A stretch of DNA of 23,162 bases. Origin: a virus. How positions within the stretch are numbered: the stretch's first letter is position 1; every line of letters starts with the position of its first letter. Location: positions 3,796 through 26,957 of IMG/VR virus record IMGVR_UViG_3300030419_003518; one strand, written 5' to 3'. The translations under genes and the position numbers were made by a program. Below the pieces are notes generated by a model, which saw nothing but the letters and a program-made list of their open reading frames with translations, was not told where the DNA came from and did not search any database. This document shows positions 2,880-23,162 of the stretch, piece by piece.

Positions 2880-4310
2880 ATGGCGTATAACGAAGAAAAC
2901 ACAACACCAATATTTGAAGAGAATCAAAATTGGAGTGATATAGAATATTCCAGACCTTATGAAACAGTAAGGCCTGAATGTCATTTCGATTTAAAACAAT
3001 TAGATTATTTTGTTCCTGCAAAACAATCATCTTCAAATAATGAAATCGAAAGTAAATTTACATTGGTTGGTGTAACATACGATTACTTTGAAGATTATGA
3101 AAATTGGAACCATGTTGAAAAATATTCACCATATCCTCTTGAGTTAGGTCCTGGAAATGCAGTTCCTGCACCATCTGTTTTTACAGATGTAAATAAATCT
3201 TATGGTTTCAATTATTCAACAAAAGTTGGTGTTGGAAATTCAAGATATACTTGGTATAGTCACACAGATTTAGATTTAGAGGTATTTAAAAAAATAAAAA
3301 ATGAAATCAGAAAACCAATTATAGAAAAAATAAAAGAAGCAAAAAGAATACAAGATATTCATAATCATTGCAAGATTGTAAAATTTTTAACAGATCGTGC
3401 AGAGGAGGCTGGAGAAGAACCACCAACATTTCCACCAATCTATGAATATAATGAAGAAGGAAACGAAGTCGAAGTCGATTGTGAAACCTATCCATGTTCT
3501 AGACTACAAGAAGCAATTAATGATATTCCATTAGAGTGTCAGAAAATAACCGAGGTATTGGGAGAAACATATACAGGATCTGATCTAAGTAATTATTGGT
3601 GGGAAGGATGGCTACCTGAAGGCTATTTAAGTTCTACTCATTATGTTGATATTGATCCTATGATACATGGTGGTGGTACAACATATAATGCGCCATCTGT
3701 TCAAGCAAAAAACAAAGATATAAGACCACCATATCAAAGTATTATTGGTTCCTATCAATGTCCAACTATAGTGGAAGGGGAAAATGAAAATAACTTAATA
3801 GTTGCTCCTGTGGGTTCCGCACCTTTTTATGGAGCGTTGGGTGGATTTACAGCAGATCCTTGTGGGTGTGTAAATGATTCAGAGGAAAGTTTCAATTTAC
3901 CTTCATATATTTCTGAGTGCAATTTCCCAGAGATGGGTGAATCATACCCAGAATATCTTGAATATGTTGCAAGTAAAGATGCAAGATATTGGAATACTCC
4001 ATTCAAATCGATATTATTAAGAAAAGCACAGATGAAATTATTATTTTCTTCTGAGATTGAGATTGATGTGCCTGGAGATTTTGCTGTAGGTGTTGGTAAA
4101 ATTATAGAAATACGATTGCCCGCTCCTATGTCTTCTACTTTAGAGGGTGGACAAGAAACAACAAAAACAAATCCTTTAAATGGAAAATGGTTGGTTGTTC
4201 AGATAAAACATATAATTGAATCTGGTGGTCATGCAATGAGACTTAAATGCGTTAGAGATAGTAATCATGTTGATCATGTAAGAGAAGGTACTAATATACC
4301 AAGTCAATAA
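2880..4310 (+). CDS. Baseplate hub-like protein (gp27-type C-terminal domain)
   Basis: A 476-residue protein starting at ATG 2880, preceded by AGGGA at 2866-2870. The C-terminal ~100 residues carry the best clue. A run reading IEIDVPGDFAVGVGKIIEIR is followed by a loop, then NGKWLVVQIKHII and MRLKCVRD. In T4-like phages this pattern (protein of low-profile beta strands, 'GD..i.vG..i.i', then 'l.GkWlV..i.H', then a closing strand ending in a charged D/S) is typical of the hub/gp27-type beta-barrel proteins that join tail tube to baseplate. The N-terminal 370 residues are acidic and Tyr/Pro-rich with scattered Cys, and I recognise nothing there. T4 gp27 is 391 residues, so this is longer. Its position directly upstream of gp25 and gp6 fits a baseplate role. 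The family name is inference from motifs; another tail-spike or hub component is possible. Confidence 0.5.
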   Translation: MAYNEENTTPIFEENQNWSDIEYSRPYETVRPECHFDLKQLDYFVPAKQSSSNNEIESKFTLVGVTYDYFEDYENWNHVEKYSPYPLELGPGNAVPAPSVFTDVNKSYGFNYSTKVGVGNSRYTWYSHTDLDLEVFKKIKNEIRKPIIEKIKEAKRIQDIHNHCKIVKFLTDRAEEAGEEPPTFPPIYEYNEEGNEVEVDCETYPCSRLQEAINDIPLECQKITEVLGETYTGSDLSNYWWEGWLPEGYLSSTHYVDIDPMIHGGGTTYNAPSVQAKNKDIRPPYQSIIGSYQCPTIVEGENENNLIVAPVGSAPFYGALGGFTADPCGCVNDSEESFNLPSYISECNFPEMGESYPEYLEYVASKDARYWNTPFKSILLRKAQMKLLFSSEIEIDVPGDFAVGVGKIIEIRLPAPMSSTLEGGQETTKTNPLNGKWLVVQIKHIIESGGHAMRLKCVRDSNHVDHVREGTNIPSQ

Positions 4311-4357: not shown

Positions 4358-4831
4358 ATGGCAGTACGAGGAGCAGGATATACGGGGAGCGAGGTTGCAA
4401 CTAAACCAGCAGAGCCTGGTTACATATATTCTGATCTTAATTTTTATTTTTCACCCTCACCATTTTTTGTTGGACAAGGAATATCAGGAGATGTTACTAG
4501 AGTGTTAGATGCAAACTCTATAAGACAATCTCTGAGAACTATAGTACTGACATCTAATTATGAAAGACCATATAACCCATTTTTTGGTTGCAATATTAGA
4601 AGTTTTTTGTTTGAACCTATGGATGCTTGGGAAAGGTATGAATTAAATGAAATCTTAAGAGAACAGATAAGAAGATATGAACCCAGAGTTGAAATAACAG
4701 ATGTTAGAATAACACAAGATGTAAAAAAACAAGAAGTACAAGTAGAACTTGATTATATAATTAAAGGTATTGAAGGATCTTCAAATACGGACACCACAAA
4801 AATACAAATCAACACAGAGAGGGTACGATAA
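4358..4831 (+). CDS. 25: Baseplate wedge protein gp25 (GPW/gp25 family)
   Basis: A 157-residue protein of the GPW/gp25 family, a small lysozyme-fold-like baseplate component that connects wedges to the tail sheath and tube and is shared by T4-like phages and other contractile injection systems. Hallmarks are visible. After an N-terminal strand (LNFYFSPSPFF) comes the helix 'DANSIRQSLRTIVLTSNYERP', the family signature 'ERPYNPFFGCNIRSFLFEP' at about residues 68-86, and an EILREQIRRYEPRVEI segment followed by paired beta strands to the C-terminus. T4 gp25 is 132 residues, so this has a short N-terminal extension. ATG 4358 has AAAGG 8 bases upstream. The stop codon TAA directly abuts the ATG of gene 6, indicating translational coupling. 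The identification is strong. Confidence 0.93.
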   Translation: MAVRGAGYTGSEVATKPAEPGYIYSDLNFYFSPSPFFVGQGISGDVTRVLDANSIRQSLRTIVLTSNYERPYNPFFGCNIRSFLFEPMDAWERYELNEILREQIRRYEPRVEITDVRITQDVKKQEVQVELDYIIKGIEGSSNTDTTKIQINTERVR

Positions 4832-6556
4832 ATGGCTGTTATTATAGCACAAGGATTAACTGGTTCAGAACAACCAAATTTACAGTTGGGAGAACTAGAT
4901 TTTCATCAGATTAGAAGAAATTTAAAACAATACCTTTCTGGTTCTGGTGTATTTACCGATTATGATTTTGAAGGCTCTGCGATGGCGAGTCTTTTGGATT
5001 TGTTATCGTATAATGCATCTTTGTATGGCTATTATGCAAATATGATTGCAAATGAATCGTTTTTAGATACTGCACAAAAAGAAGAGTCAATAAAATCTTT
5101 AATTAAACCTTTAGCATATCTTCCTGTTTCATCAAGATCTGCAAGAGCAGAAATTACTGTAAACGGAACAGATAAAACCATAACCCCAGATGATTTGTTT
5201 TTAGGACAAGGACTTAAATGGGCTCCATCTCAAGAATATTATGTAAATGGAAATACAACTATTGAGTTGCTTCAAGGAAATAGAAAAGAACAGGATAGTC
5301 CTAACCAATATGATATTAATAATCCTCATATGAAGTTTGAAGTTCCTTCTGATTTTCTTGATAGTACTAGTTTAAAGGTTTATGTAGATGAAGGTTCTGG
5401 ATATAATGAATGGAAAAATGTAGATAATGTCGTGGGTAATATTACTGGAATTACTGGTGGAGCAAAAGCATATTTCTTAACCACATCAAGTAATGGAAGG
5501 TACGCTGTTTATTTTGGTGATAATTTTATTGGGAAAAAACCACAAAACTTATCCAACATTAGAATGAGTTTTATGGAAACAGCAGGCGAAGATGGTAATG
5601 GAGTTGTTGTATTTACCAGCGGAACGAATGGGATATCAGTTGTAAAAACAGAAGTTGCTGGTGTTGGTGGTGCTTTTCAGGAAGATATTGAAAGTGTTCG
5701 TAAATTTGCACCTCTTAATTTTCAAACACAAGGAAGATATGTTACATCATCTGATTTTATGGTTGGTTTACGACAAGAACAATTAGGCGTTGTTTCAAAT
5801 GTTTGGGGAGGTGAAGAAAATGATCCCCCCAATTATGGTAGAGTATATGTAAGTGCTATTGGTGAAGATTCTTCTTTACTTACAGAAACTATGAAAAATA
5901 GAATTGTCAACTTGATGAAAGCAAAAGGAGTTGTTAGTATTTTACCAGAATTTGTTGATCCCATTCCTATTAATATTTTAATTTCGGGTAACATATACTT
6001 TGATGCAATCCGATCACCAAATGATGTAGAAGTTGTACGGTCAAGAATTGTAAATTATATTAACACATATCAAAGATCTGCCTTCGATGAGAATTTTAAT
6101 TATTCTTTATTCACGGTAAATTTATTGAATATTGATGAAGGTATTGTTGGTGAAACTTTAGATGTTTATCTAGAAAAAGAATATATTCTAGATCAAGATG
6201 ATCCATTAGCATCAATCACTTTACCATTTAATAATGCATTAGCAGATCCAGGCGGTATTCCTGGCACTGTAATAGAAACTCCTCAACCCATTCGAGTTAA
6301 TTATGAAGGTACACCAATTTTTGTTTACTTAATTGATGATGGTTATGGTGGAATAAGAATGTATAAATTAGATGATTCTTCATTCTTACAAGAAGTTGGT
6401 TCTGTTAATTATTCTACTGGTAGAGTTCAAATAGATGATCTAAACGCAATAGAAAGTTTTACAATAAGAGCAAGACCAAGATCAAATTCAATCATATCTA
6501 AAGGACCTCTTGTATTAACAACAAAAAATGGAGGAGTGGAGGTAATCTCTACCTGA
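4832..6556 (+). CDS. 6: Baseplate wedge protein gp6
   Basis: A 574-residue homologue of T4 gp6 (660 residues), the dimeric wedge protein that forms the inner ring of the baseplate and is related to the baseplate J family. The N-terminal signature is clear at about residues 24-110. A 'DFHQIRRNLKQYL' helix is followed by 'FTDYDFEGSAMASLLDLLSY', NASLYGYYANMIANESFLDTA and 'KPLAYLPVSSRSARAEI'. These match the gp6 N-terminal helical block and the start of its beta domain. A middle region (about 300-400) carries the 'RYVTSSDFMVGLRQEQ' and 'YGRVYVSAIG' elements common to J-type proteins. The C-terminus ends in a Tyr/Gly-rich beta segment. Its ATG follows the gene 25 stop without a gap; the purine-rich GAGAGGG at 4817-4823 is its likely ribosome site. 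Assignment is confident. Confidence 0.93.
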   Translation: MAVIIAQGLTGSEQPNLQLGELDFHQIRRNLKQYLSGSGVFTDYDFEGSAMASLLDLLSYNASLYGYYANMIANESFLDTAQKEESIKSLIKPLAYLPVSSRSARAEITVNGTDKTITPDDLFLGQGLKWAPSQEYYVNGNTTIELLQGNRKEQDSPNQYDINNPHMKFEVPSDFLDSTSLKVYVDEGSGYNEWKNVDNVVGNITGITGGAKAYFLTTSSNGRYAVYFGDNFIGKKPQNLSNIRMSFMETAGEDGNGVVVFTSGTNGISVVKTEVAGVGGAFQEDIESVRKFAPLNFQTQGRYVTSSDFMVGLRQEQLGVVSNVWGGEENDPPNYGRVYVSAIGEDSSLLTETMKNRIVNLMKAKGVVSILPEFVDPIPINILISGNIYFDAIRSPNDVEVVRSRIVNYINTYQRSAFDENFNYSLFTVNLLNIDEGIVGETLDVYLEKEYILDQDDPLASITLPFNNALADPGGIPGTVIETPQPIRVNYEGTPIFVYLIDDGYGGIRMYKLDDSSFLQEVGSVNYSTGRVQIDDLNAIESFTIRARPRSNSIISKGPLVLTTKNGGVEVIST

Positions 6557-6557
6557 T

Positions 6558-8090
6558 ATGACTATCTCTGCTTTACATGGTGGTTTTGCTTCTGATAATC
6601 CAGGCGATATCTGGAATGATGCTGCATTGAGAATTGCTGGCGATGCTTTTGGTATTCAAAATATAGGCGAAGATGAATGTCCGAATGATTTTAATTTTTA
6701 TGCTAAAGATAGATTACCAAATCATGTTTTAGAGTTATATGATAAATTTACAAGATTCATTGGACTCTTTTATAAATTTTTGGAGTGTGAGCAGAGTTTA
6801 GGATATCTGGGTATATTAAAAGATATTGATGAAACTCCAGACATTTTGGTTAAACTATTCAAAGACGTATATGCTGCTGGATTTCCAGATAGAGTTTTTG
6901 TAGAAGAAACAGAAGAAGATAACGGAAATCGTAACGATAACGATAAATTTGCAAACGTAGATTTTTTATATCCATCACAATCTAAATTAAATGTTAGAAA
7001 CTTTTTACGATATGTTAGAGATTTTTATCAATTAAAAAGTGTAGAGGGAGCATATGATTTCTTCTTTCGAGCATTTTTCAACGAAGAAGTTTCCATATCA
7101 TATCCAAAAATATATTTACATAAATGTTCTGAAGGCGCATATCTTGGAGCATCTGCTGGTTACACCGCAGATCCCCATTATTACTGGGGAGATAGATTTG
7201 CACAAGTACCATCGAAATATGAAAATTATCCAGATTGTAGAGATGAAACATTAGAAAATCCTCTTGGGAATTGTATTCCTATACCATTCCCAGAATATGG
7301 TCCTACTGGACCTTGTTATTTTAATTCCGATGGAAATTTGTGTTGGGGAGCAGGCGGTTCTTATGATGTAGAAGGAAATTTATTATTCCCACCTTGCGAT
7401 CCAGGCTGTGCGCCAGGAAATCCTCATGGAGTTCAGTATAAGAATGATTTTGGTCTTCTGAGCGGATTTAGTAGAATTCATGATAATAAAACATGGCAAA
7501 ATTATTCATACTTACTTGATTCTGCAATATCATGGAATTCATATAAAGATTATGTTCGTAGTTTACTCCATCCAGCAGGATTATATTTAGCAGGAAATTA
7601 TAATGTATATGATGAATTTCCACAACCAGGCACCACAGGAGAAGCAATTCCTATGGAACAGCCTGTGATTGGAAACTATACTCCATATAGATTTAATACT
7701 TCTGTAAATTTAAGAGATAATGAAAATGAAGTTGATTTATATCCATGTGGTTGGAATCCATATATTCGTGCCCACGGAGTATCTTATGAGTCGGGACATT
7801 TACAAGATACAAAAGGATTATGGTATAAAGATGAGGCTGGTGCAACAGCACATCAACCAAAATTAACACCATTAGGAATTTGCGGTGGTACGGGTGGACT
7901 CGATGCAGCACTACAAGGTTTAAGTTTCTTCAGAATATTTCATCACCCAAATACATGGACAACAACTGTACCAGAAGATTTATCATTTAAAGATCTAGAA
8001 CTTGGTATGTTCTTCTATCTAGAGGCTATAAATAAAAATACAGGATCACCAAACAATGCAGCAGAGAGTTCTTCTGGTTGCGGATTCTAA
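6558..8090 (+). CDS. Baseplate wedge gp7-like / tail protein
   Basis: A 510-residue protein between genes 6 and 8, the place of gp7 in T4. Residues about 53-111 give a helical region (LELYDKFTRFIGLFYKFLE) followed by 'LGILKDIDETPDILVKLF'. Residues about 138-193 read 'LRYVRDFYQLKSVEGAYDFF', then FRAFFNEEVSISYPK. Residues about 310-346 contain WQNYSYLLDS and then 'YKDYVRSLLHPAGLYLAGNY'. These three blocks recur in proteins of T4-like marine phages found beside gp6 and gp8, usually annotated as gp7-like or simply tail proteins. T4 gp7 is 1032 residues, so this would be a much shortened relative. A Pro/Gly/Cys-rich insert lies between the second and third blocks. The C-terminal ~110 residues resemble nothing I recognise. 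It starts 1 base after gene 6, with GGAGG at 6538-6542 about 15 bases upstream. The family assignment is moderate. Confidence 0.6.
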   Translation: MTISALHGGFASDNPGDIWNDAALRIAGDAFGIQNIGEDECPNDFNFYAKDRLPNHVLELYDKFTRFIGLFYKFLECEQSLGYLGILKDIDETPDILVKLFKDVYAAGFPDRVFVEETEEDNGNRNDNDKFANVDFLYPSQSKLNVRNFLRYVRDFYQLKSVEGAYDFFFRAFFNEEVSISYPKIYLHKCSEGAYLGASAGYTADPHYYWGDRFAQVPSKYENYPDCRDETLENPLGNCIPIPFPEYGPTGPCYFNSDGNLCWGAGGSYDVEGNLLFPPCDPGCAPGNPHGVQYKNDFGLLSGFSRIHDNKTWQNYSYLLDSAISWNSYKDYVRSLLHPAGLYLAGNYNVYDEFPQPGTTGEAIPMEQPVIGNYTPYRFNTSVNLRDNENEVDLYPCGWNPYIRAHGVSYESGHLQDTKGLWYKDEAGATAHQPKLTPLGICGGTGGLDAALQGLSFFRIFHHPNTWTTTVPEDLSFKDLELGMFFYLEAINKNTGSPNNAAESSSGCGF

Positions 8091-8099
8091 GGAGTAGAT

Positions 8100-9749
8100 A
8101 TGGCAGAAAAAACAGGAATAGTTTCATTTTTTAATGATATAATACAACAGAATCTTGTTAGTCATTTCGACCAACCAGATCAATCATTAACCTTTGTTGC
8201 AGGAAGAGTCAAACAAGATACTCCTAATATATCAGGATTTAGTGATTTACAAAAACAAACTCTTGCTGGTGCTGTTGTTGGTAGAGTTGTTGATTTGAAA
8301 GAATCATATTATCAAGTAGTAAGAAGAAATAATTGGACTTCTGGTGCAATTTATAATGCATATGATCCAACCAAACTTAATCAAAATCATTATGTTTTAG
8401 TAACAGAACCAAACGGTAGTAAAACAGTTTATCTTTGTATGGAAAATGGTGATTCATATGATACTGGTAGACTTTCTGTAAATAGACCAGATGGAGCAAT
8501 AGGAACCATAACTTCAAGTGAAGATGGTTATAAGTGGATGGCTCTTTATAATATTACTGGAAATATGGTTAGATTTTTAACTGCAAAACATATGCCAGTT
8601 CCTACTCTTTCTCAAATAGATGATGCTCCAAGTAGCAGTTCATTAAAATTAAGCACCGCTGCTTTAAATTATTGGTATGGTAATAGAGGAAGTCTTTATA
8701 GATTTGACATTGCAGATTGGATTCGAGATTTACGGTGGGACGAAAAACCAAGTCTTTCTTTACGAGAAAGAACAAATGACGAGGCTCAAATAGAACTTAT
8801 AACAGAATTTGATAGTGATAATGTAATTGCAGAGAGAAGAGGATGGAGCATTAAAGACATTATTATCAAAAAAGGAGGTAGTGGTTATACTACTATATTT
8901 GATTCTTTATTCTTAAGTGCAGAACCAAAAGACAATATCTACAATGCTACACTAGATCATATAGTTGGAAATGAATATAACTCTATTCTTGATGTTTATG
9001 GTCCTGGAATCCGTCCATTATTTACTTTAGGTACATTAGATTTTCCAACACTCTTGGGTTCAGATAAAGCAATGCTTGTTCTTACTATGGATTCAAGTTC
9101 AATTGAACAGTTAACAGGTAACAAAAATTATAATACTTTTTCTTTGGTTAGAAATTTAAAAACAGAAAAAGACGGTCAACTTGTTGATATAAAGAATGCA
9201 GTAAAGCCAGGAGAAAGTTTTAGAATGACGACCATACTTCAAATAAGAAATTCAGTCCCTTCCTCTGATTTTGTTGCAGTTGCTGCGATTGGTGGAGATA
9301 TACACTCATTTGGAAGTGGAACAACTTCTACTAACAATACAGTGGTTGCTACCAATGTTGCTGCAAGAACTATGGAGTTGGCATCTGCAAGTGCAATCAA
9401 TGGAGAGAATTTTATTGGAAATGGTGTTCAAGTATATAATAAAGGTGCAAATAATCCATCGACTATTGCTACTGCAATTGCTGCATCTTCAAAGGCGGAT
9501 AAAAATAGTTCAAATGCCACGACAGCAGCAATTGCAAACTTTATTGGATCTTCAACAGCAAGTATACAAACATCATCAACAAACGCAATAACTTTACCAA
9601 TACACAGAGTATCGGCAACGCCAGATAGATATGGAACAAATGTTGTTTATACGCAAAAGTTTGATACAAATATTGTTTTAGATCAAAATGGACAAAATAC
9701 TTTACAACTTAGTTTATTAGTGGGTGGTTCAGAAATAACGGCCGTTTAA
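8100..9749 (+). CDS. 8: Baseplate wedge protein gp8
   Basis: A 549-residue homologue of T4 gp8 (334 residues), a dimeric wedge subunit that binds gp7 and gp10. The recognisable core is at residues about 65-170. It has a 'YYQVVRRNNWTSGAIYNAYD' segment, YVLV and 'VYLCMENG' strands, and then DGYKWMALYNI followed by FLTAKHMPVP. This 'W..g.vY..YD ... YvC/L.N ... DGY.WK..Y.i ... MPV' series is the gp8 signature. The C-terminal third is long and different: low-complexity, rich in Ala, Ser, Thr and Asn (about residues 400-520), resembling a beta-rich surface extension. GGAG at 8091-8094 directly follows the gene 7-like stop and precedes ATG 8100. Genes 25 to 8 are thus one coupled set. A long overlapping frame inside it (9271-9591) is a shadow of the repetitive Ala/Ser codons. 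Confidence 0.88.
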   Translation: MAEKTGIVSFFNDIIQQNLVSHFDQPDQSLTFVAGRVKQDTPNISGFSDLQKQTLAGAVVGRVVDLKESYYQVVRRNNWTSGAIYNAYDPTKLNQNHYVLVTEPNGSKTVYLCMENGDSYDTGRLSVNRPDGAIGTITSSEDGYKWMALYNITGNMVRFLTAKHMPVPTLSQIDDAPSSSSLKLSTAALNYWYGNRGSLYRFDIADWIRDLRWDEKPSLSLRERTNDEAQIELITEFDSDNVIAERRGWSIKDIIIKKGGSGYTTIFDSLFLSAEPKDNIYNATLDHIVGNEYNSILDVYGPGIRPLFTLGTLDFPTLLGSDKAMLVLTMDSSSIEQLTGNKNYNTFSLVRNLKTEKDGQLVDIKNAVKPGESFRMTTILQIRNSVPSSDFVAVAAIGGDIHSFGSGTTSTNNTVVATNVAARTMELASASAINGENFIGNGVQVYNKGANNPSTIATAIAASSKADKNSSNATTAAIANFIGSSTASIQTSSTNAITLPIHRVSATPDRYGTNVVYTQKFDTNIVLDQNGQNTLQLSLLVGGSEITAV

Positions 9750-10443: not shown

Positions 10444-13400
10444 ATGTCAGGATATTTTGCAGGTTGCACGGGATACACATATGCTTATGGGTCTGGATTG
10501 GGCGGACTCACTCATGCTGCATGGACAGAACCTGGCGGAACTGGGAGTATCTATCCTAGTGAATATGGTGTTCATAACTATGATCAATATAGTGGCACTA
10601 GAGGATTTACATCTTCTGTATATTCTAGAGATTATGCGATTCCTGATGTTAGTTTAAACGACACGTTTGAGTCTTGGAGAACTTTAACAAACGATCAAAT
10701 AATTGAAAAATTAAATCTTCTTAAAGTTTATGGAGCAACTCATGGTGATGGTATCATGGTTGCAAACTCAACTGGTGGTACTTTAGCAGTAGCATTTTCT
10801 GGTAATGTCTTAAGAACACATACAACATTTTGTAATAACGTAAGTATTGGAAAAACTCTTAAGGTTGGTGATACATTAATACCAGCACCAGCAGCAGGTG
10901 AGGACGGAGGACCTCCTGAAGGAAGTGTTACTACTGGTTATAACTTTGCAGAAAAACTTTTAATATTAAACACAGAAGATAATAAAATAGGTTGTGATTT
11001 TTCTGGTATTATAGTTGGTGGTGGTGTTACAGGACCAAACCCAACATCAATAGACAATAGTGATGGTGGAGATGTACATAATGCTTTCGCTTTCGATAGA
11101 CCCTATCTTCTTCATCAAAATTCTCTATGGAGAACTAAAGAAGGAATGTGGTTTGAGGGTGAATTAAACCATAGTTGTGTATTTGGTGGTAGAACTTTCT
11201 GTGGTGGAACTGGGGAAGACTATCCGTATGGTCCTTATGGTTATACTGGTTGTGGTTTAACATATTCTAACAGTCCAGCAACGGGTGGTGTTGTTAGATG
11301 GTATTTTGGACCAACACTTGGAACTTATAATTATCTTGACATTGATGGTAGAAATGGTGTTGCTGGTAAGACTGGTTATGCATGGCACAATCCCTTTGAA
11401 CCTGCCGAAATTGGTGGAGCGACTGGTGCGTTGGTTCTTTCCAATGCAGGAGGCCCACTGCTAGAATTTGATGGTAGTGTAGATGGTGATTTCGGATTTA
11501 CAAACATCTATAGAGGAGCAAACCGAAAGAGAATTATAAAAAACAATCACGGATTTGTTATAGGAAATGTTCTTCGTTATAGTGGAGTTACTCAAGGTTA
11601 TACTTATGCTTCCGCTGCTGGTAAATATGAATTACATGGTGATGGAACAAGAGCAGCAGAAGTTATTGGTGTTGTATCCAAGGTTGTTGATTATAGAACC
11701 TTTGACATTACATTCATGGGTGAAGTGATTGGAACTAAAAATGAGTGGAACGCTTCTCTCGTTGAAAATCACGCAGAAGGTTTAATACCTGGCTGTGTTT
11801 ACTACTTATCACAATACGGTAAAGCAAACAGAGGTAAATTGCAACATGCAATACCAGCAAATGTTGGTTATGTTTCAAGACCTGTTCTAGTTGCTACAGG
11901 AAAAACTTCTGGTATAGTAATGCCATTTACTGGACAGTATTTGTCCCCAACTGGTTGTTCTGGTGGTAATGGTAATGGATCAATTAGTGGAAATAGTGGA
12001 AATGATGCAACATTCTTTGAAGTTGGTTATGATAAAAATTCAACAGCATTCTCACAAGGCGATGTTGTTTGTGTAAATGCTGAGAAAGCAGGTGGAATTG
12101 ATTTTGCTGATATATCAAAGGGTGGAGATTTCATACAACCATTCGGTGTAGTTTATGATGTAAACGCTGACGGAGATGTTGCAACTATTGCAACAAGCGG
12201 AACTATAACTTTCCCAGGACCGTTTAAATTACCTTCGATTGGAACTTGGTATCTATCAGAAGAAGGTAAATTAATAAAAACACCATCCTCGATTGCACTC
12301 AAAGTGTTAGATGCAATTTCTCCATCTACAGTTATTCTTAATATTCAAGATGCAGGATTTATTGATGGTGGAGAAAAACGATATGGAAGCAATCAGAAGA
12401 GAGGATCCCAAGAAGGTAAACCAGGCATCCAAGGACCTATATTAGGACCAACTGGTGCTACTGGACATACCTATGATAATTCTCTTCAAGTAAATGAAAA
12501 CCTATTAAGAAATCCTGACTTTGGATTGTGGCAAAGAGGAATTGGTGTTACTTCTCCATACACAGGAATTAACAATACCTACTTTGCAGACAGATGGGTT
12601 CGTTTAACGCAAACTGGAACAGGTGGGTGGTATGGAAACAATCCCTACACTGGAAAATCTGCGGGAACTCATAGAACCATTGACACAAGATTACAGAGAG
12701 GTGTCTTTAATAAGAAACAAACTAAGGTAGAAGGACACCCAGATTTCTATGCAGTTGTAAAGGGAGCAATCACATATCATGGTGGTACTCAGTCTTATGA
12801 GTATTCGAAAGTAGAGCAAAGAATTCAAGACTGTACTTCTTTCGCAGGAAATATAATGACTGCATCTTTCTATTGTAGAGCATCTGGTGGAACAGGAAAT
12901 TGTCATCTTGCATGGATTCAAAATCTAACAGGAAAAACTGGTCCTGTGCCTGGTTCAACATTAGGTGGAGTATGGAGTCTTACTGCAAATAATGCTGGAA
13001 CATCTGCTGCTTATGGAGTTACTGCAAGTGAAATTATTACACCAATCACTGACTTCACTGTAGGAAAACATTGGTCTAGATATGCATTCTCCTTTATTGC
13101 ACCAGAAGTATCAGATGCCGCTGGAGCATCAGGTGCAAATTATACTCCAGCGAGAGGATTCAGTGCAGATCACTTTGCTTCATTGTCATTCTTTACACAA
13201 TTAACTAGTTTGCCCGATGGAACTCATAAGAATATTAATTTCCCCCATGAGTTACATCTGTCACAGGTAAAACTAGAAAAAGGAAATGTTTCGACTACAT
13301 TTAATACTGTTGATCCATATACAGAATTTGCTGAATGTAGTAGATATTATCAAACCAGTTATGTGGATGGAACTCCAGTTGGTACATATACAATGAGACA

Positions 13401-13773
13401 TAAATCTCAACCAGACACATCAGGTGTAAACTTTATTGTTTCTGGTAATTATCTTCATATCTACGAATTACCAATAAGAATGAGAAAAACTCCAGTTTGT
13501 GGTCTTTGGTCACCAACGGGTATTGCAGAGGAAGGATTTAATAGAGATGCTAGTGACGATATGAGATTTGTTGCTGGTACTAGAGGTCATATCAATAACG
13601 AACTGAGAACTTCAGCAATAAATTCTCCAAACATATCGTGTTTCACAGATTCTCCAAATGGAATAGAAATTCGTGTTCACAGAGGAGCATCAAAGTTAGA
13701 CACAATTACCGTTCATTACACAGCAGACGCGGAATTAAATGATGGATTCCCAGAACATCCAACAACTACATAA
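10444..13773 (+). CDS. Large tail fiber / adhesin with carbohydrate-binding-like region
   Basis: A 1109-residue fiber-like protein. Residues about 70-140 hold 'LNDTFESWRTLTNDQIIEKL' and GDGIMVANSTGGTLAV, a motif of marine phage fibers. A middle region (about 355-500) has the module 'NHGFVIGNVLRYSG ... AAEVIGVVSKV ... YYLSQYG ... RPVLVAT', shared with the next gene, and a weaker second copy at about 520-640. A short collagen-like Gly-X-Y run follows (12415-12465, GKPGIQGPILGPTGATG), and then 'NLLRNPDFGLWQRGIG' with 'ADRWVRL' (about 685-722), which matches the beta-sandwich carbohydrate-binding modules common in fibers ('N..F..WQRG ... ADRW'). The C-terminal half is beta-rich. An upstream in-frame ATG (10435) is closed by TAG just before the start, so ATG 10444 with GGAG at 10430-10433 is preferred. 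It probably contacts the host surface. The name is inferred. Confidence 0.75.
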   Translation: MSGYFAGCTGYTYAYGSGLGGLTHAAWTEPGGTGSIYPSEYGVHNYDQYSGTRGFTSSVYSRDYAIPDVSLNDTFESWRTLTNDQIIEKLNLLKVYGATHGDGIMVANSTGGTLAVAFSGNVLRTHTTFCNNVSIGKTLKVGDTLIPAPAAGEDGGPPEGSVTTGYNFAEKLLILNTEDNKIGCDFSGIIVGGGVTGPNPTSIDNSDGGDVHNAFAFDRPYLLHQNSLWRTKEGMWFEGELNHSCVFGGRTFCGGTGEDYPYGPYGYTGCGLTYSNSPATGGVVRWYFGPTLGTYNYLDIDGRNGVAGKTGYAWHNPFEPAEIGGATGALVLSNAGGPLLEFDGSVDGDFGFTNIYRGANRKRIIKNNHGFVIGNVLRYSGVTQGYTYASAAGKYELHGDGTRAAEVIGVVSKVVDYRTFDITFMGEVIGTKNEWNASLVENHAEGLIPGCVYYLSQYGKANRGKLQHAIPANVGYVSRPVLVATGKTSGIVMPFTGQYLSPTGCSGGNGNGSISGNSGNDATFFEVGYDKNSTAFSQGDVVCVNAEKAGGIDFADISKGGDFIQPFGVVYDVNADGDVATIATSGTITFPGPFKLPSIGTWYLSEEGKLIKTPSSIALKVLDAISPSTVILNIQDAGFIDGGEKRYGSNQKRGSQEGKPGIQGPILGPTGATGHTYDNSLQVNENLLRNPDFGLWQRGIGVTSPYTGINNTYFADRWVRLTQTGTGGWYGNNPYTGKSAGTHRTIDTRLQRGVFNKKQTKVEGHPDFYAVVKGAITYHGGTQSYEYSKVEQRIQDCTSFAGNIMTASFYCRASGGTGNCHLAWIQNLTGKTGPVPGSTLGGVWSLTANNAGTSAAYGVTASEIITPITDFTVGKHWSRYAFSFIAPEVSDAAGASGANYTPARGFSADHFASLSFFTQLTSLPDGTHKNINFPHELHLSQVKLEKGNVSTTFNTVDPYTEFAECSRYYQTSYVDGTPVGTYTMRHKSQPDTSGVNFIVSGNYLHIYELPIRMRKTPVCGLWSPTGIAEEGFNRDASDDMRFVAGTRGHINNELRTSAINSPNISCFTDSPNGIEIRVHRGASKLDTITVHYTADAELNDGFPEHPTTT

Positions 13774-13783
13774 GGAAATATAA

Positions 13784-15268
13784 ATGGCAGTATCAAATTC
13801 AAATTGCGGTTCATCACTTCTCAATCCATCTGTTTGTATTCAGGGTGCAGGAACTGTTGGATCAAAACTTGCTTTAACTGTTACTCAATCTGCTCATGGA
13901 TTTAGTGCTGGTAGTGTTGTTCGATGGAACAGTGGAATTGATGGAAATGCAGCACAATATGTAGAGGCGAGAGCAGATAATGCTTATAATGCAGAGGTTA
14001 TTGGAGTAGTTTCTGAAGTTCTTAGTGGAGATTCATTTGAGTTGACCCTTTCTGGTGTTGTAAAAATGAATAATTTCTTTAGTAACACAACTGGTGCAAT
14101 ACCAGCGGGATCTACACAAGATGATGTTTTCTTTTTGAGTGGTTATACTGCTGGATGGATGGATGTTAAACGACCAAGAACGCCTGGGTGGGTAGCAAAA
14201 CCTATTATTACAAGATTAGCAGAAGATCCTTCGGGTAACATTTTTGGAATGGTAACAAATTATGTTGGTAGTCTTCTTGGAGGAAATGTTGTAACGTCAT
14301 TGGGTCAAATTGTTCCTGTAGGAACAATTAATTCTTGGTTAGGAGGTCAAGATAAAGTTCCAGCAGGTTGGGCTTTATGTGATGGAGAAGGACCAAAGGA
14401 TGGTAATGGTATACCAGGCATAAAGGTAGAAAATCATAGTGAGTATCATTCGGTTGTTGGAAAAGATTATGGTTGGGTTGAATGTTTGAAGACCGATGAT
14501 GCTTCTGTTGCTGTTGGAGAAAAAATACAACAAATATCTGTTGATGAAGTAACTGGTATAGAAAAGAATATTGTTGGTATTGTGGTTGGTGCATCTGGTG
14601 GTATAGAAGAAGATGGTAGAAGGTACGTCTTTATAAGACAAAGTATAAATGATCTAAATACAGATGAGCCAAATGCTACACTTATAAATGGAAACTTTGC
14701 AATAGTTACACCAGATGAAAGATTACAAGGTGAATCTGACCTTCAAACAAGAGCAGATTTTCATAAGACTCTTAATGGAGAGTTAGCAGAATTTTCACAT
14801 TCATCTGTTGGTGTTGTAGCAAATAAATTTACATCTAACGGAGAATCTATTGGAACTATGCTTCTCTTTGATGATGGTTCTGGTAAAGTTGGAGTATTTT
14901 CACTTTTACCTCCAGATTTAAGAAACAAATTTGTACTTGGTGCGAAGGATGAAGAGTCAGATAGACGAGGTAGAGTTGGTGGAAACGAAACAATTTCTCG
15001 AAGATTAGTTAACGGCGATGAATTAGAATCATTGCAATCAGACAGAGATGGTGGAGATTTTGGTTACTGGAGAAATGAAAGTAATATGCCACCTTATGTG
15101 ACTACGAATTGGATTGTTCGTATTGATCCAAATGCAAGTGCAGCAATTATTGATACTTTGGAAATTGATAATATAAGACTTAAAAATTTACCAACAAGTG
15201 GCTCTGGTCAAGAACAATACACTGTCTATAGACATACGGACGACACGCTTAAGATTACAACGTCATAG
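13784..15268 (+). CDS. Tail-collar domain fiber protein
   Basis: A 494-residue protein with a Phage_Tail_Collar domain, as in short tail fibers such as T4 gp12. The signature 'PVGTINSWLGGQDKVPAGWA' followed by LCDGEG begins near residue 176, and the complementary 'LPPDLRNKFVLGA' is near residue 376. About 170 residues separate the two, far more than in a standard collar domain. Residues about 22-165 are a copy of the 'HGF..G.V.RW ... AEVIGVVSEV ... FFLSGY ... AKPIIT' module of the preceding fiber. The C-terminus (YTVYRHTDDTLKI) is a short conserved ending seen in such fibers. It begins 10 bases after the stop of the preceding gene, with AGGA overlapping that stop. Likely a short tail fiber or accessory fiber. 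Confidence 0.78.
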   Translation: MAVSNSNCGSSLLNPSVCIQGAGTVGSKLALTVTQSAHGFSAGSVVRWNSGIDGNAAQYVEARADNAYNAEVIGVVSEVLSGDSFELTLSGVVKMNNFFSNTTGAIPAGSTQDDVFFLSGYTAGWMDVKRPRTPGWVAKPIITRLAEDPSGNIFGMVTNYVGSLLGGNVVTSLGQIVPVGTINSWLGGQDKVPAGWALCDGEGPKDGNGIPGIKVENHSEYHSVVGKDYGWVECLKTDDASVAVGEKIQQISVDEVTGIEKNIVGIVVGASGGIEEDGRRYVFIRQSINDLNTDEPNATLINGNFAIVTPDERLQGESDLQTRADFHKTLNGELAEFSHSSVGVVANKFTSNGESIGTMLLFDDGSGKVGVFSLLPPDLRNKFVLGAKDEESDRRGRVGGNETISRRLVNGDELESLQSDRDGGDFGYWRNESNMPPYVTTNWIVRIDPNASAAIIDTLEIDNIRLKNLPTSGSGQEQYTVYRHTDDTLKITTS

Positions 15269-15281
15269 GAGTAACTAGATA

Positions 15282-16424
15282 ATGTCAAACACTCCTGTTA
15301 CTTCTTATAGTCATAGTGCCCATCAATTAAATGTAGGACCTATTGGTGCAACTGGTATAGATGGTTCTGCAACCGTTGTAAAAGGAAAAACTGGTTCACC
15401 AGGACCTCATGGAAATACTGGACCATCTGGTCCTACTGGTCCTATTGGTAATTATCCTATTGGAATAACTTATGCAAGTACAGGTGGGGATCCTCTTGGC
15501 GGTAAAGCACATCGTCTAATTGTTAGATATTCAAATGGTGTTACTACTGATGGAGGTTATTATAGAGGACCAACTGGTCAAACTATTCATTATCTTGCTG
15601 GAGAAAATCTAGGACAAGCAACTGGTGGAGCAGCGTTTCAGAAAACAGTTCGTGGAGAAATGTTCTTAAAGAGTATAACAGGTGGTGGTGGTGTTAGAGT
15701 TACTGATGATGGTTCTACTATTAAAGTATCATATACAACTCTTGATGCTGTTCAGGCACATGGAACTCAAGGTGAATTAGTATTCTTCAATAAGAATTCT
15801 GCTGGAAAGACTGGATTATCTGGTGCTACATTTACACATTATTATGCAGGGCCAACATTCTCATTAGATTGTACGACATATGCTCAACAAGAAGTTGTTG
15901 GAAGAATAAGACCATATCAATATGATTGTATTACACATACTTTGATTTATAAATTAAATCCAAATGAATTACTTCACATAAAAGCATCAAGAAATAACAC
16001 TTCTCTTGGAAATAATATTTACATTGATGTTGAAAAAGACTATAAAGACTTGTTTAGTTTGGTTGATATTCCTCTAGGATCAAAACCTTTTTATAGAATT
16101 ATAGATGGTTCCCAACCATCTGATGATGATTTTTCAACTTTGTTTGGAAACAATACAGGATGTGCATTTACTTTAACAATTAAGGGAAGTAATAGAGGAA
16201 TTAGAACAACAAGAGAGGACTGTTCTGAAAACCCCTTATCAGAAATAACAATGAATAAAAGAGTTTTTCCAAGAAATTGGAAATTTCCCAATAATGCAAA
16301 TCCATTACAACATGATGGCATAGATATTATACAGTTCATTACTATAGGAAGTAAGGACGTAGCAACGGATATGACAGAATGGTATGGAATGTATGTGTCT
16401 TCAAGAGAAAATCCTTTCACTTAA
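15282..16424 (+). CDS. Collagen-like fiber protein
   Basis: A 380-residue protein. After 'MSNTPVTSYSHSAHQLNVGP' comes a Gly-X-Y run at about residues 19-56 (for example GNTGPSGPTGPIG), typical of trimeric collagen-like phage fibers. The rest is beta-rich: a segment 'FLKSITGGGGVRVTDDGSTI', then GTQGELVFFN, then a region to the C-terminus with 'FPRNWKFPNN' and 'HDGIDIIQFITIGSKD' ending in a Trp/Tyr motif. The same three elements recur in order in the first ~420 residues of the next protein, so the two are paralogues (see findings). GGAG at 15268-15271 lies 10 bases before the ATG and overlaps the upstream stop. No enzymatic motif seen. Likely a fiber or fiber-tip component. Confidence 0.75.
   Translation: MSNTPVTSYSHSAHQLNVGPIGATGIDGSATVVKGKTGSPGPHGNTGPSGPTGPIGNYPIGITYASTGGDPLGGKAHRLIVRYSNGVTTDGGYYRGPTGQTIHYLAGENLGQATGGAAFQKTVRGEMFLKSITGGGGVRVTDDGSTIKVSYTTLDAVQAHGTQGELVFFNKNSAGKTGLSGATFTHYYAGPTFSLDCTTYAQQEVVGRIRPYQYDCITHTLIYKLNPNELLHIKASRNNTSLGNNIYIDVEKDYKDLFSLVDIPLGSKPFYRIIDGSQPSDDDFSTLFGNNTGCAFTLTIKGSNRGIRTTREDCSENPLSEITMNKRVFPRNWKFPNNANPLQHDGIDIIQFITIGSKDVATDMTEWYGMYVSSRENPFT
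15336..15449 (+). repeat. Collagen-like Gly-X-Y coding repeat
   Basis: Within the 15282 gene, codons for Gly recur mostly every third position over about 38 residues (GPIGATG, GKTGSPGPHG, GNTGPSGPTGPIG), with one interruption. Thr and Pro are the favoured X/Y residues, as in phage and bacterial collagen-like proteins. Such a run implies a trimer. Confidence 0.85.
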
Positions 16425-16441: not shown

Positions 16442-19400
16442 GTGAGTAACAGTGCCCATATTATGGTTTTTGGCCCTACAGGTGCAACTGGACCAACAGG
16501 AAGTGCTGCGGGCATTGGTGTTGACGGAATCTGCATGTCAACTGGAACTGGAGACACTGGTCCTGCTGGACCATCTGGGCCAACTGGTGCGACTGGGCCA
16601 CAAGGACCTATGGGTGTTGGTTTTGGTTATTGTGGACCTACTGCTCCATTAGTTTTCCAACATCTTGATGATAATGGTAATGAAGTTTTTGGAAGTGCTA
16701 CTTATGATTATAAGCATTATCGTTATGCAGGAATATGTGGAAGTCCTCAACACTCCCTTACCTTCTTACTAGGAACGGGTTCAACAGGAGGAGGACATAC
16801 ATTTACAGTTCCTGGCACAGTTCTTCGAGGAGTGCATAATGGTGTTCCCGCAGATATACGAGGTGTAACAGGCACAACTGGTGCAACTGGTGGTGTGATA
16901 ATTCATACCGTTGGTGATGGTATCTCTATAGTAAGTAAGATTGAAGGAGCAACTGCTTGGTTTAAGAGTATTGCACAAGGCGGTGACGTAGAAATTTCTG
17001 TTTTTAATGACACCATCTACCTTGCAGGTACAGTAGCAAACGCACCAGATGGTATTGACATGGGAGTAACTGGAGAAATTCTTTACATGTCCACTGCATC
17101 ATATGCTGATGGTGCATCTGGTACATATTTTAATTCAAGCACATTATTACATAAACCTGTTGTTGGTGCATCTGCATATCATGAAGCATTGACTGTGAAG
17201 ATGGGCAACCAAAGAGAAATTATAAAACGACATGGAAATTTAAAAGGATTTACTGCATATCCTGTTGGTTGGTCGGAAGATTCAAGAACAGATGTATTAA
17301 TAGATCCAAAGTTTGGTAATATTCATAAAGTATATTGTGGTCCTACTACTGGTTATATTAACTTACCATCTTTTAAAAATAGTTCTGGAGCAACACACGA
17401 CACAATTGAAAATCTAACAGTAATACTTCATGGTGCTGATAAACATGGATTAATAACTGGTCATATTGGAAATGTAGATAAAGAAATTGATATCTTTGAT
17501 AACAGGGATTCTCAGAAATATAGATGGCCAGAAAAATATGGAGTTGGAGATACTTCTGTTTCACAATCATGGGATAATTATTCTTTCTCGGATGGTGTTG
17601 ATATTATCTCCTTCCAAAGAGTTAATCATGATGAAAGATGGTATTGGCAACCTCTCAATCCAAGTTCTGGTTATACTGGTGATTCTAGATTTTCCTTTGA
17701 TGAATATACAATAGGTGCATGTTGTTATGATGCACATCCAAGTGGCTGTGACGATTATCTATTGAAGTCTGAATGTGATTTGGTGCAACAACAATATCCA
17801 GATGATCCTGCGTATAACACAACTTTCTACCCATTTGTTTTATGTGAAGACTCCCCATGTTATGGTTCGGAGGGTGCATGTTGTACAATGGGAACTTGTA
17901 TTCAAACAAGCAGTGACTTGTGTTCTCAGTTCGGTGGTTATTTTATTCCTGATGGTTTATGTGGTCTATATGGATTAGACTGTAATGACTATCCTTGTGA
18001 ACCTCCAATATTACCAACAGGTGCATGTTGTATTGAATCCATAGATGCCGAAGGTACTGTTTGTTATGATTGCATGGATGCCTCAAACGAACAGTGTACA
18101 CTTATTGGTGGTGTATTTAATGGATATGAAAGTTCTTGTGCAGCAAATCCATGTGATTTGCCACATTGTCCAAGAGGTGCTTGTTGTTATCCAGACCCAG
18201 TATTTGCAACAAATACCATTTGTACCGAAGTAGGAGACAATACTTGTGTAAATATTTTAGGTGGGGCTCATTATGGTGAAGGTTCATCTTGTTGTGATAA
18301 TAATAATCCTGTAAGTGAAATATGGAACGGTGTATATTGTTATGAGGGAGAACTTGTTAGTATTTGGGCAGATAGTTACCAAGCAATAGAAGATCAACTA
18401 CCAGAAGGTTACAATTCAAATTGTACAAATATAGTTCGTTGGAATACTAATGATGAATATCCACAGGCATGGTTGCCAGCATTTTCAACAACTCCAGATG
18501 GAGAATATAATCCATCAAATTCTGAATCAATTTGTACAAATCCAGATTGTGATTGTGATTGTGTTGCAATAGCAGAAAATAAACCATTAGGTGATTGTTG
18601 TCTTCCATATGAAGTAACTCTAGAGGATTCGTTTGGGGGAGAAATTTCTTGTGACTTCTTGCCATTTTATGACGAAGAATCTTGTGTAAATTCTCATGTA
18701 CAAGGAACATGGACAGAGGGAGGATTAGATCCTAGACCAAATTGTTTAGATGGTGAAAGATGTGGTGAGGGTGCAGACAATCCATTTGGTGATTGTGTTT
18801 CTTGTGGGGTAAAGGGAGCCTGTTGTGTAGGTGGTGTTTGCGTTTTTGCGAATGAAGATGAGTGTCTAAATCTTGGTGGAATATTCCAAGGAGAAGATAC
18901 TACATGTCAAGGATCTGGTGCGGTAGATTGTTGTTCTACACTACTAGGACCTTGTTGCCTAAGTGATGGTAATTGTCAAGAAAATGTTCATCCAGCAGAT
19001 TGTCTTTCTTCTAATGGAATATTCCAAGGAGTCGGTAAGAGTTGTTCTGATACAGATATAGATTGTTGTACAGATGATACTAGCGGAATATTAGGTGCAT
19101 GTTGTTGTGATGCTTCTTCGCAATGTCAACCAACATGTATTAATAATATGACACAAGATGAATGTAATGCAAGAAATTTCCAGTTCTGCGATAACTGTAG
19201 TTTCCATGCAGACAAGAGTTGTGCAGATATTAGTTGTGTTGATAATGAATGCCCAGATTGTGATCATCGGGCCAACGAGGCCTGGCATATTTTTGTTCTT
19301 GCAGGGAGTGTAGGAGAACAAATTATAAATGATGGTCCTTACACTTGGGGTTCAAATAGATTAAAAGCAGAATTACAGGAAACAGAAGGAACAGACTTCA

Positions 19401-22400
19401 AAGATTATATCTATGCACACACCACTGCTAACGATGGTTATTGGAATACTTTTGGTTGGTATTGGTCTTGGGGAATGGGAGAAAGTGCAGAAGGTGATAC
19501 AACAACATGTGAGTGGGGAGAATATCCTGTAGGTTCTGTTGTACCAAGACGAAGCGGCCCTTATAATAATCCAGGCATATTTGTATGTGATGGTACGGAG
19601 TCTAGTGAATGTTTCGACGGAGAAAATACAAAATTATTAAGAGATGCTACCATAGGATGGTGGGACAACACCATTGATGGGGGAATAGGAAATGGTTATC
19701 TCGCAAATGGTGGTTTATTTGCAACTCAACTTGCAATGGCAGATATATGGGAAAATACTCTATGGTCTGATGTAGGTCAATATAATACAGTCTTCAGAAA
19801 AATTAGAGATATAAATGTTACTTACTCTCCTAAGTATAGTATTTGGAATCCTCCAATGATTCAGAATTCATCTCTACCACCCATTGGTGCTGGAAATGAA
19901 TTATACTTGCCATCAAAAGAAGAGTTACATTTCTTCCTTAAACAAAGAATGGAACATTCTTTATTAAATACCGAAACATCATTTATTGGAAACAAAAATC
20001 TTTGGACTTCAACCACTACTGAAAGAGCATTTCACAACTCAGATGATATTTTCTATCAAAATGCAGAAAGTGGAATTGTTGGAACTATTGGTCAATATGG
20101 TGGTCTTGCTTCACATACACAGAATTATCCTGACGGAAATCAACAATTAGAATTAGATGCATCTGCTATACTTTTTGCAAGAATCATGGGTAGTAATGGA
20201 CAACAATATATTCCAAGCAATATAAGTCCAGGCGATACAATAAATCTTGGAGTTAATTCTGTTCCTATGGTATATGTTGGTGAATTTAGACCAGGCTGCT
20301 CGACTGGATTTGGAACAGAGAAATTAGACACATGTGCAGATTACCCGAATTGCTCAACCATTGAAGAACAAGAACCATCTTTTGTTTGTTCACAACTTTT
20401 GGCACAGGGTGCTTGTTTTTCCTGTAACGATTTCGGCGGCGGGGGACTTTCTGGTAACATGTATAACTGTTTACATCCTTCGGATGTTTGGCCTTGGTCT
20501 TCTCAATCTCAAATAGAATCAGGTACTCCCGTTCGTCGATGGGTAGGTAATCATTTTCATGGAACCACGACCAATCTCGAAGAATGTATTGCGGGCGACT
20601 GGGAAGGATGTGGTTCTTATTTTCACACTGTTAGCGGTGGAGGTCAATATGCAACCATTCCTACTAACGATTTTGATATAACTGAACATTTTGATGGTGA
20701 ATCGGAAATTTATGGTGAATATAGTCGTATCTACGAAATGGTATCATACGCCACAGTGAATACTCCATCAGAATTAGATCCTATGTTCTTTGCATTAAAT
20801 GCAGAGTACGAATATAATGTTGGTGCTAGAGATTTCATCACTCATTGTGTTGAAGACGGAACGTGTTGTGATTACGAACATGAAACTTGTACCGTAACCA
20901 AGAAGTGTCTCTGTGACGGTAGTTTCCAAGAATGGCATAATACTGTTGATTTTGATAATAACAATCCTCTTATGTGTGAGTTATGTGATTTTGACGCTAG
21001 TTATGGTGCCTGTTGCACTGATGGTGATTGTGAAATGTCATACCAAAGTGAATGTGACGGAGATTTCCAAGGATCGGGTTCTCTTTGTAGTCCCAATCCA
21101 TGTAGTGGTAATACTACTAGTGGTTCTTGCTGTTATATTGATGGCGGCCTGACTCGCTGTGCAAATGTTGCAAATGAAACCGAATGTGATTCATATAACA
21201 ATAGTACTTTTTATCCTGGCGTTCCATGCAATCTCAACTCGGCTTGTGAGGTCGGTTTCGGTGAGGGGAATTTAAACTGTTGTGATGATAATGATGATGA
21301 TATTAATGATTATTTTTGTTTAGATTGTAAGAGTTATAATCTAGAAGAATGTCCTCCTGGCGATGACGACTGTTTTCATGATCCTTATAATGAAGACATA
21401 AAAATATCACAAAGGGCTCCTGGCTGTGGTTGTGATTCTGCAACTAGAGAATACGATAGCGATGCTACAGATATTAAAGTATCAAGTTGTGCGCAAGGGG
21501 AACCATTTAATGCTGGTTATGGTGCAGCATTTGTAAATAATAAAGATATTCTTCTAACATTAACTCATGGTCTAGTAACAAATCAACCAAACAGTTCTAC
21601 TCCAGCAAAACAACCAGAACTATTTGATTGGGGAAACGATAATCTAGGATGTCCTTGTGAACATGGATCTTTCTTTGATTGTGCGTCTGATACAATTGAT
21701 TGTTCACCTGAATGCTGTGAATGGGGAGGATCCGCAGCGTTCGATGGTGGTGATTTGGGTATACAATATTTAAAATATGATGACACCCAAGTAATTAACT
21801 ACAAGCCAGGGCAAGCACCCATTCTATATCCAACAAGTAATCTGATTCCAATTAATCCAATATCAGGAAGACCATATTTTTCAATCGCATCTTCCCCAAA
21901 CAATTATTTTGATACAAGCCAAAATAATGACTTCACCACAACACCACTTGGTATGTGGAATGTTTCCGATCCAAACATGCAAGACGATGATGTAGGTTTA
22001 GATGGAAGGGCTTATAACAATAACTGGTCGCCTGGTTTCTATTGGCAAGCCACAGATTATGTTACAGGTGGTTGGATTCCAAAATCTGCTTTTGAAAATG
22101 AACAAAATAACTTAAAACAAACCGACCTTTCATATATTAATGCAACCAGTTCTAATATGTTTAGTTATCGTTGCACTCCATATAATGGATTATTGAATGG
22201 TGATTGGTGGAAGGAAGAAGACGGAATTCGTTATTGGGAAATGGATCCTGAGTTAAATGAGGGCCAGTATTTAGAAGATTCTGTTGCAATGAATCCTTCG
22301 TATGCAAGAAGATTTAAGGTTAGTTATCAAACATATGTGATACGAGATCATTTTCATGTAGTTCAATTCCCATGGCCTAAAGGTGCAAGGGATGAAGTTG

Positions 22401-23162
22401 AAGCATATAATAGAATTAATGAATATCTAACTCTGCTATTTAAAATTCTATGCATCAATCCACAATTTGGAAAGGTTAGTTATGGTAGTGATATTGTTCG
22501 TCGGCCATATTATGGATGGGCAAGTGGAGGGTCAGCCAATTCTGGTCCAGGAACTCCTAGCAACCAGTTGTTGATGTGGGGGCCAAAAAATCATCCATTG
22601 GCGGATCACCCAGATACTCAGACAGAAATTTCTGATCTGGATCTTGACACGCACTGGCCCCCCAGCCCAATGTCCGATACGTCGGTTTGGAATCATGATG
22701 CTAATATTTATGATTATAGTATGCAAGAAGAAGACTGTGAACTACAAGGTCATGTTGGAACAGCATTCCATTTATGGGGCGACATGGACGAAGGCGTTCC
22801 TAATTGGCATTATTTAGATGGAATCGTAGTAAGTAATGGTTCTCTTGTTCTTGATGATGGTGTTTATGCACATGGAACACACATGAGAGATCAGATTTGT
22901 TGTGAAACTCAAATTCCACCATGCGAGTATGGTTTTCATGAGTTTTCTTCGTGTGGACTGCCAGGAAATAATGTTTCATACACAATTAGTCCGAGGTTAT
23001 TAAGTGCTAATTTTGCGGAGAGATTCTTAGGATATAAAGCAGAACCACATTGGGTAATATTTGACAGTCATTGTGTTGGAACTAAGGCTGCTGAGTATCC
23101 AGGCGAAAGCGACATGGGTGTGTATTTTGGTGATGGTCTTGAACCATACACTGATCGTCCGC
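16442..23162 (+). CDS. Giant Cys-rich collagen-like adhesin, 3' end outside window
   Basis: I translated this frame codon by codon and found no stop over 2240 codons, so it continues past the window. It starts at GTG 16442 (see the ribosome site at 16427). Domains in order: Gly-X-Y collagen-like runs at residues about 11-62 and 141-151; a beta domain to about residue 420 that is paralogous to the 15282 protein; Cys-rich modules from 425 to about 940; a Cys-poor segment of about 300 residues followed by a sparsely Cys-containing one (to about 1470), including '[15 protein letters not shown]' and then [12 protein letters not shown]; more Cys-rich modules from 1473 to about 1760; and a mostly Cys-poor, Trp/Tyr/Asp-rich C-terminal region. 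About 125 Cys were counted by hand. No signal peptide or catalytic motif is seen. Its place in the fiber cluster suggests a host-recognition adhesin. That function is inferred. Confidence 0.88.
16472..16894 (+). repeat. Collagen-like Gly-X-Y coding segments (interrupted)
   Basis: Three short Gly-X-Y runs encoded by the start of the giant gene: [10 protein letters not shown] at 16472-16501, [20 protein letters not shown] at 16550-16609 and [11 protein letters not shown] at 16862-16894. A non-collagen beta segment separates the second from the third. Repeated ggt/gca/act and gga/cca codons make the DNA itself quasi-repetitive. Confidence 0.8.
17714..19261 (+). repeat. Cys-module cluster 1 (about eight GACC-type repeats)
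   Basis: Within the giant gene, a module recurs beginning Gly-Ala-Cys-Cys, then a short loop with Gly/Asp before a third Cys, an acidic stretch and a fourth Cys, then Gly-Gly-x-Phe/Tyr, then Cys again. The modules begin at 17714, 17873, 18020, 18176, 18590 (GDCC), 18815, 18947 (GPCC) and 19094, corresponding to residues 425, 478, 527, 579, 717, 792, 836 and 885. Spacing varies from about 44 to 138 residues. The region also contains gattgt in three tandem copies at 18545-18562, coding Asp-Cys-Asp-Cys-Asp-Cys. Confidence 0.85.
20846..21720 (+). repeat. Cys-module cluster 2
   Basis: A second group of the same modules in the giant gene begins at 20858 (GTCC), 21005 (GACC) and 21122 (GSCC), residues 1473, 1522 and 1561, and decays into irregular Cys pairs up to 21720 (ECCE). 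The best preserved copy reads [10 protein letters not shown], then [10 protein letters not shown], then LC. An Asp-rich run from repeated gat codons lies at 21283-21310. Confidence 0.8.

Follow-up and report, generated by a model that had tools for sequence, protein, structure and literature searches.

The window analysed here, a 23,162-nucleotide stretch of viral DNA, is the end part (G000:C1:3796-26957) of a 26,957-base virus record. The gene order at the locus is gp53-like, a 545-aa tail protein, a Cys-rich ORF, a 476-aa tail protein, gp25, gp6, two wedge proteins, a 214-aa protein, a 1109-aa fibre, a 494-aa collar-like protein, a 380-aa collagen-like protein and a giant open reading frame (Table 1). 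Homologues of the baseplate wedge proteins (gp53, gp25, gp6 and others) were found in syntenic order (PHROG 232, 261, 219, 438 and others), and the PHROG matches together with the gene order uphold the T4-type baseplate and fibre block recognised in the initial annotation. The giant occupies the usual site of fibre genes in T4-type phages, after the baseplate wedge genes and before those of the neck. In pelagimyophages the same genomic place is that of the host recognition cluster (PMC7029224). The 380-aa ORF scored 20.2 bits against Pfam Collagen (PF01391), under the cut-off of 27.2. The window contig ends before the neck-to-capsid genes, whose order is known from the relative G003: there, the fibre block is followed by a series of Cys/Trp-rich ORFs, head-tail connector proteins, terminase, sheath and tube (both identified by position and size) and the major capsid protein, which matches that of Methylophilales phage Melnitz at 53%.

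Table 1. Features of the window, with positions counted from its first base.
Feature	Position	Strand	Evidence or remark
Second Cys/Trp-rich protein, C-terminal part	1..2847	+	Separated from its start by a 10-N scaffold gap beyond the window edge
Baseplate wedge genes	4358..9749	+	Pfam and PHROG
gp25-like	4358-4831	+	
gp6-like	4832-6556	+	
Wedge genes (two)	6558-8090; 8100-9749	+	
1109-aa tail fibre ORF	10444..13773	+	PHROG 4492; clade marker, 49-57% identity
494-aa short-tail-fibre/collar-like ORF	13784..15268	+	PHROG 5795, 1800, 4591
380-aa collagen-like fibre ORF, directly upstream of the giant	15282..16424	+	Pfam, PHROG; giant-like start
Giant ORF P0001	16442..23161	+	GTG start, 2240 codons, truncated by contig end
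Collagen-like Gly-X-Y runs (residues 11-22, 37-57)	16472..16612	+	Weak PHROG tail-fibre matches, residues 10-60
N-terminal conserved region (residues 58-413)	16613..17680	+	NT HMM
Six-Cys module group 1 (residues 415-622, 4 modules)	17684..18307	+	HMM
Six-Cys module group 2 (residues 779-932, 3 modules)	18776..19237	+	HMM; AF2
Lcl C-terminal/DUF1566-like region (residues 937-1290)	19250..20311, core 19892-20200	+	Pfam, Foldseek
Six-Cys module group 3 (residues 1461-1602, 3 modules)	20822..21247	+	HMM
18-letter motif	21275..21328	+	Identical or near-identical in relatives (alignment)
C-terminal conserved region (residues 1736-2006)	21647..22459	+	HMM; YRCTPYxGL, NPSYARxFK, PWPKGA

At the other end of the window, the second Cys/Trp-rich ORF continues as L005:2811-3857, with the 10-N gap at L005:3786-3795. 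Its equivalents in the relatives contain 7-18% Cys, and the Cys-rich ORFs of the clade reach a maximum of 18.4% (L021:1493-2818). The N-terminal part of phrog_350 was matched by L005:1158-2795 and its C-terminal part by window positions 2880-4310, with the Cys-rich ORF between them, an arrangement that would fit the splitting of an ancestral gene. Further genes were observed in the relatives: a 1121-aa ORF with leucine-rich repeats upstream of the neck genes of G003 (L008:7647-11012), a Destabilase (PF05497, lysozyme family) in G007 (L028:2510-2890) and, again in G003, a thioredoxin-like domain fused to glutamine synthetase (L009:14594-16033; 23.4 bits against a Pfam cut-off of 23.5).

The giant ORF runs without a stop and without an N over its 2240 codons and encodes 126 Cys in total. 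The chance of an open run of this size, computed from the base composition, was about 10^-71, and the other two forward frames are interrupted by 103 and 266 stops across the same region. GGAG lies about 12 bases upstream of the GTG, and the start '(S)xSxHIxxxGPTG' is common to the giant and its relatives. That this is the longest frame in the window, with neither stop nor end inside it, was confirmed; the ORF reaches base 26956 and lacks a stop because the record stops one base later, so the open end belongs to the contig and is not a property of the gene.

A search of IMG/VR yielded three relatives of the giant. The complete one, with its stop, has 3771 residues (L002:9896-21211) and is 38-47% identical to the giant, varying with the alignment. 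L001 is a near-identical copy of it with the 3' end missing, and L003 is a partial giant gene on an 85-kb contig. The L001 and L002 giants were 99.6% identical; 12 of their codon differences are synonymous and 9 non-synonymous, too few for selection to be measurable. More contigs with the same gene order were found by scanning with the neighbouring fibres, and the relatives from uncultured phage contigs retain the giant gene, its start and its neighbours. There was no sign of a frameshift or an assembly error, the homologous giants in other contigs being free of internal stops. Neither the giant nor the module-bearing proteins described below gave a tblastn match in 50,697 phage records, and literature searches found no description of the giant protein or its Cys module. 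RVT_1, the reverse transcriptase of diversity-generating retroelements (DGR), was present in none of 10 records, all of them fragments.

The giant had been described in the initial annotation as a protein of unusual size that joins Gly-X-Y runs, a beta domain, two groups of Cys repeats and a Trp/Tyr/Asp-rich tail in an architecture of no named family. Its size and the lack of a named family were borne out by Pfam, PHROG, tblastn and NCBIfam searches, in which it matched no known common protein and, outside the collagen-like stretch, no Pfam, NCBIfam or PHROG family. The Gly-X-Y runs are present but short, just 4 plus 7 triplets (residues 11-57), and Pfam Collagen made no call on the giant; judged from its sequence, this stretch is a probable trimeric stem. 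Residues 58-413, the putative beta domain of that annotation, are conserved in the giants of six further contigs (NT HMM, E 1e-61 to 1e-227) and are weakly related to the adjoining 380-aa ORF. The tail holds a region, residues 1736-2006, that is conserved in three relatives and matched no Pfam or PHROG family.

One domain had been missed in that description. Residues 937-1290 contain the DUF1566/Lcl_C motif pattern YxPSxxE...YWTSS...RxVR. Against Pfam Lcl_C (PF07603) the window scored 12.6 bits (E 0.17), not reaching the cut-off of 34.9 bits, and the best of six relatives (E 0.0033) was also below it. When 350,542 PDB chains were searched with Foldseek, the first rank was taken by 8q4e, the Lcl C-terminal domain (E 0.63; low-confidence query model, pLDDT 41.5), and the Lcl_C core alone gave no match in a PDB profile search. 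These lines agree, none being decisive alone, and we describe the region as Lcl_C-like and as a possible C-type-lectin-like domain.

The Cys repeats were likewise found, but in three groups with 10 modules by HMM instead of two groups, and neither the identity of the module nor its link to Planctomycetota had been noticed. The consensus of the module is GxCC-x(4-5)-C-x(7-8)-C-x(12-13)-C-x(4)-C, and neither Pfam nor NCBIfam has a family for it. AF2 modelled a two-module stretch (residues 792-876) with a pLDDT of 90.1. The proteins of the clade contain 106 modules at E<1e-3, and the phage-module HMM found 162 modules in 60 phage ORFs. A fold search against viral predicted structures gave no convincing match. 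In a separate pattern scan of IMG/VR we obtained 32 loci (L149-L180), a few of them from contigs already known here. Most had at least one module by HMM, the ORFs concerned frequently being 1000-2300 aa long, and T4-like markers were present in some loci; the module is therefore more widespread than the clade of the giant.

Bacteria were scanned with a DNA pattern for GACC[LF]PDGxC. At least 118 bacterial stretches matched, and 101 of 118 among the matches listed carry Planctomycetota names (titles counted). According to an HMM built solely from phage modules, these bacterial loci contain 599 modules, spread over 126 ORFs. The modules stand head to tail with linkers of 3-5 aa and many carrier ORFs have signal-like N-termini. 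One HMM recognises the six-Cys module, with the same Cys spacing, in phages and Planctomycetota, and a module common to phage giants and secreted Planctomycetota proteins suggests the likely host group. At 1e-6, modules were counted in 9 of 61 Phycisphaerae genomes (up to 46 copies) and in 0 of 94 genomes of Gammaproteobacteria, the latter search lacking its own positive control. A few contigs of Zixibacteria, Eisenbacteria and Bacteroidia likewise contained modules, which speaks against the host assignment proposed below.

Within the window the host evidence consists of the Cys modules; the remainder comes from relatives. G005 has two secreted-looking genes with Phycisphaerae-like C-termini downstream of its major capsid gene (L026:13783-14835 and 14876-15508), one with a dockerin-like and one with a PEP-CTERM-like tail, the latter resembling tails in the module-bearing bacterial loci. 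An HMM of seven bacterial dockerin-like tails matched a single ORF, that of G005, among 2774 phage ORFs (E 1.9e-11). The tails of P0003 and P0004 were not recognised by NCBIfam, and P0003 gave one match in 198 Phycisphaerae genomes, in the tail only (E 8.9e-7). A DNA pattern for the dockerin tail was too strict, with 0 matches in 14 genomes that included expected-positive ones. Furthermore, the fcl-gmd pair of G003 (L009:18611-19899) matched a pair on a Phycisphaerae chromosome with 68% DNA identity over 1039 bp (E 2.5e-103), against a best value of 7.7e-20, over merely 97 bp at the best score, in the Gammaproteobacteria control; the Fcl protein was 62.5% identical to that of Phycisphaerae and 47.1% to the best phage record. 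The window DNA had no match, spacer-like or other, in 397 Phycisphaerae genomes, and the host assignment therefore has no CRISPR-spacer support. Literature searches found no T4-like phage of Planctomycetota. Collectively, three hints from sequence, namely the module, the G005 tails and the G003 fcl-gmd pair, point to a Planctomycetota (Phycisphaerae-like) bacterium as the fairly likely host of the clade.

When the module profile was searched against the PDB, the only matches were iRhom1/2, with E 0.14 for the phage modules and 0.0012 for the phage-plus-bacterial alignment. One module aligns fully with the iRhom homology domain, its six Cys in register, and Foldseek on the module placed animal iRhom in the top two ranks, iRhom1 first (E 0.69, probability 0.75, 29 columns at 1.4 A). 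Eight disulfides are present in the iRhom homology domain; its published description reports no similar structures and calls the fold unprecedented (PMC11248996). In iRhom1/2 a single full module copy sits in a membrane pseudoprotease, whereas the giant has no rhomboid part. The similarity is weak and may reflect convergence, and we treat the link as a lead.

We propose that the giant is likely to be an adhesin associated with the tail of phages in an uncultured T4-like clade, acting as a fibre that binds a receptor or extends the reach, its location on the virion being deduced from gene position; its N-terminus has no apparent secretion signal and its start resembles those of other fibre ORFs. 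Less probably, the giant is a whisker, spacer or stabiliser, with a structural or decorating role in the tail and no part of its own in host recognition. Many Cys-rich paralogues lie near the giant, the 3771 residues of the complete relative exceed the need of a simple receptor-binding tip, and receptor binding is something that we infer for the giant; against this stand the position in the fibre block and the presence of an Lcl_C-like domain and a collagen-like stem in one protein, as in the Lcl adhesin, and we consider a purely structural role unlikely. It is more improbable still that the infected cell secretes the giant or exposes it on its surface, for aggregation or superinfection exclusion through host-type secreted modules: with no apparent signal peptide, a place among fibre ORFs and a fibre-like start, the giant does not look like such a protein, even though the module is characteristic of proteins secreted by Planctomycetota and G005 encodes two proteins with C-terminal tails of that kind.

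Marine T4-like phages normally have collagen-like and carbohydrate-binding fibres (PMC7029224), and the giant might belong to an ordinary fibre family that the searches overlooked. The lack of tblastn matches in 50,697 phage records for the giant and the module proteins, and of any Pfam, NCBIfam or PHROG family past the collagen-like stretch, makes this very improbable. An artefact, whether a mis-assembly or a chance open frame, is scarcely credible and, for the open frame, refuted; the gene is cut by the contig end, and the window is immediately preceded by a 10-N join, but several independent contigs show the same gene order and homologous giants without internal stops, and the chance expectation is about 1e-71.

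As a tail-associated adhesin, the giant would be attached to the tail and trimerised by its N-terminal part and collagen stem. The protein would be made in the cytoplasm, and after lysis its Cys modules would oxidise into rigid beads stapled by putative disulfides, giving reach, stability or adhesion. The Lcl_C-like domain may bind a surface glycan or protein, with the C-terminal region as an alternative receptor binder. If the six-Cys modules are common to the phage and a Planctomycetota host, adhesion may target, or mimic, module-bearing surface proteins of that host. A more far-reaching combination, in which the clade infects Planctomycetota, the giants derive from the secreted module of the host (mimicry or homotypic attachment) and the module is a bacterial relative of the iRhom homology domain, is conceivable and we hold it to be rather doubtful as a whole.

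The host recognition cluster of pelagimyophages and cyanomyophages is similar in having variable fibre genes in the structural region, and collagen repeats and carbohydrate-binding domains have been reported for that of pelagimyophages (PMC7029224); however, we found no account of such a cluster containing Cys-module giants of 2200-3800 aa, and phage records gave no sequence match. Legionella Lcl (PF07603, PDB 8q4e) likewise combines a collagen-like part with a C-type-lectin-like domain, and its C-terminal domain is trimeric, C-type-lectin-like and glycosaminoglycan-binding, next to the collagen-like region (PMC11162425). In contrast, the phage giant is far larger and has Cys modules between stem and domain, and its match is below the curated cut-off. 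The six-Cys (GACC) repeats of Planctomycetota have the same consensus, stand head to tail and are unnamed in the libraries searched; their bacterial carriers tend to be secreted, whereas the phage protein that carries them also has other domains and shows no evident signal peptide. Fibres in the host-recognition block of T4-like phages are a known kind of protein, and giants built from the six-Cys module are a new form within it. The proposed phage adhesin type would be assembled from a small Cys module that phages had not been known to use and that is named in no searched library, and it provides a sequence-based host hypothesis, Planctomycetota, for a T4-like clade and a possible bacterial or phage lead to the origin of the iRhom homology domain.
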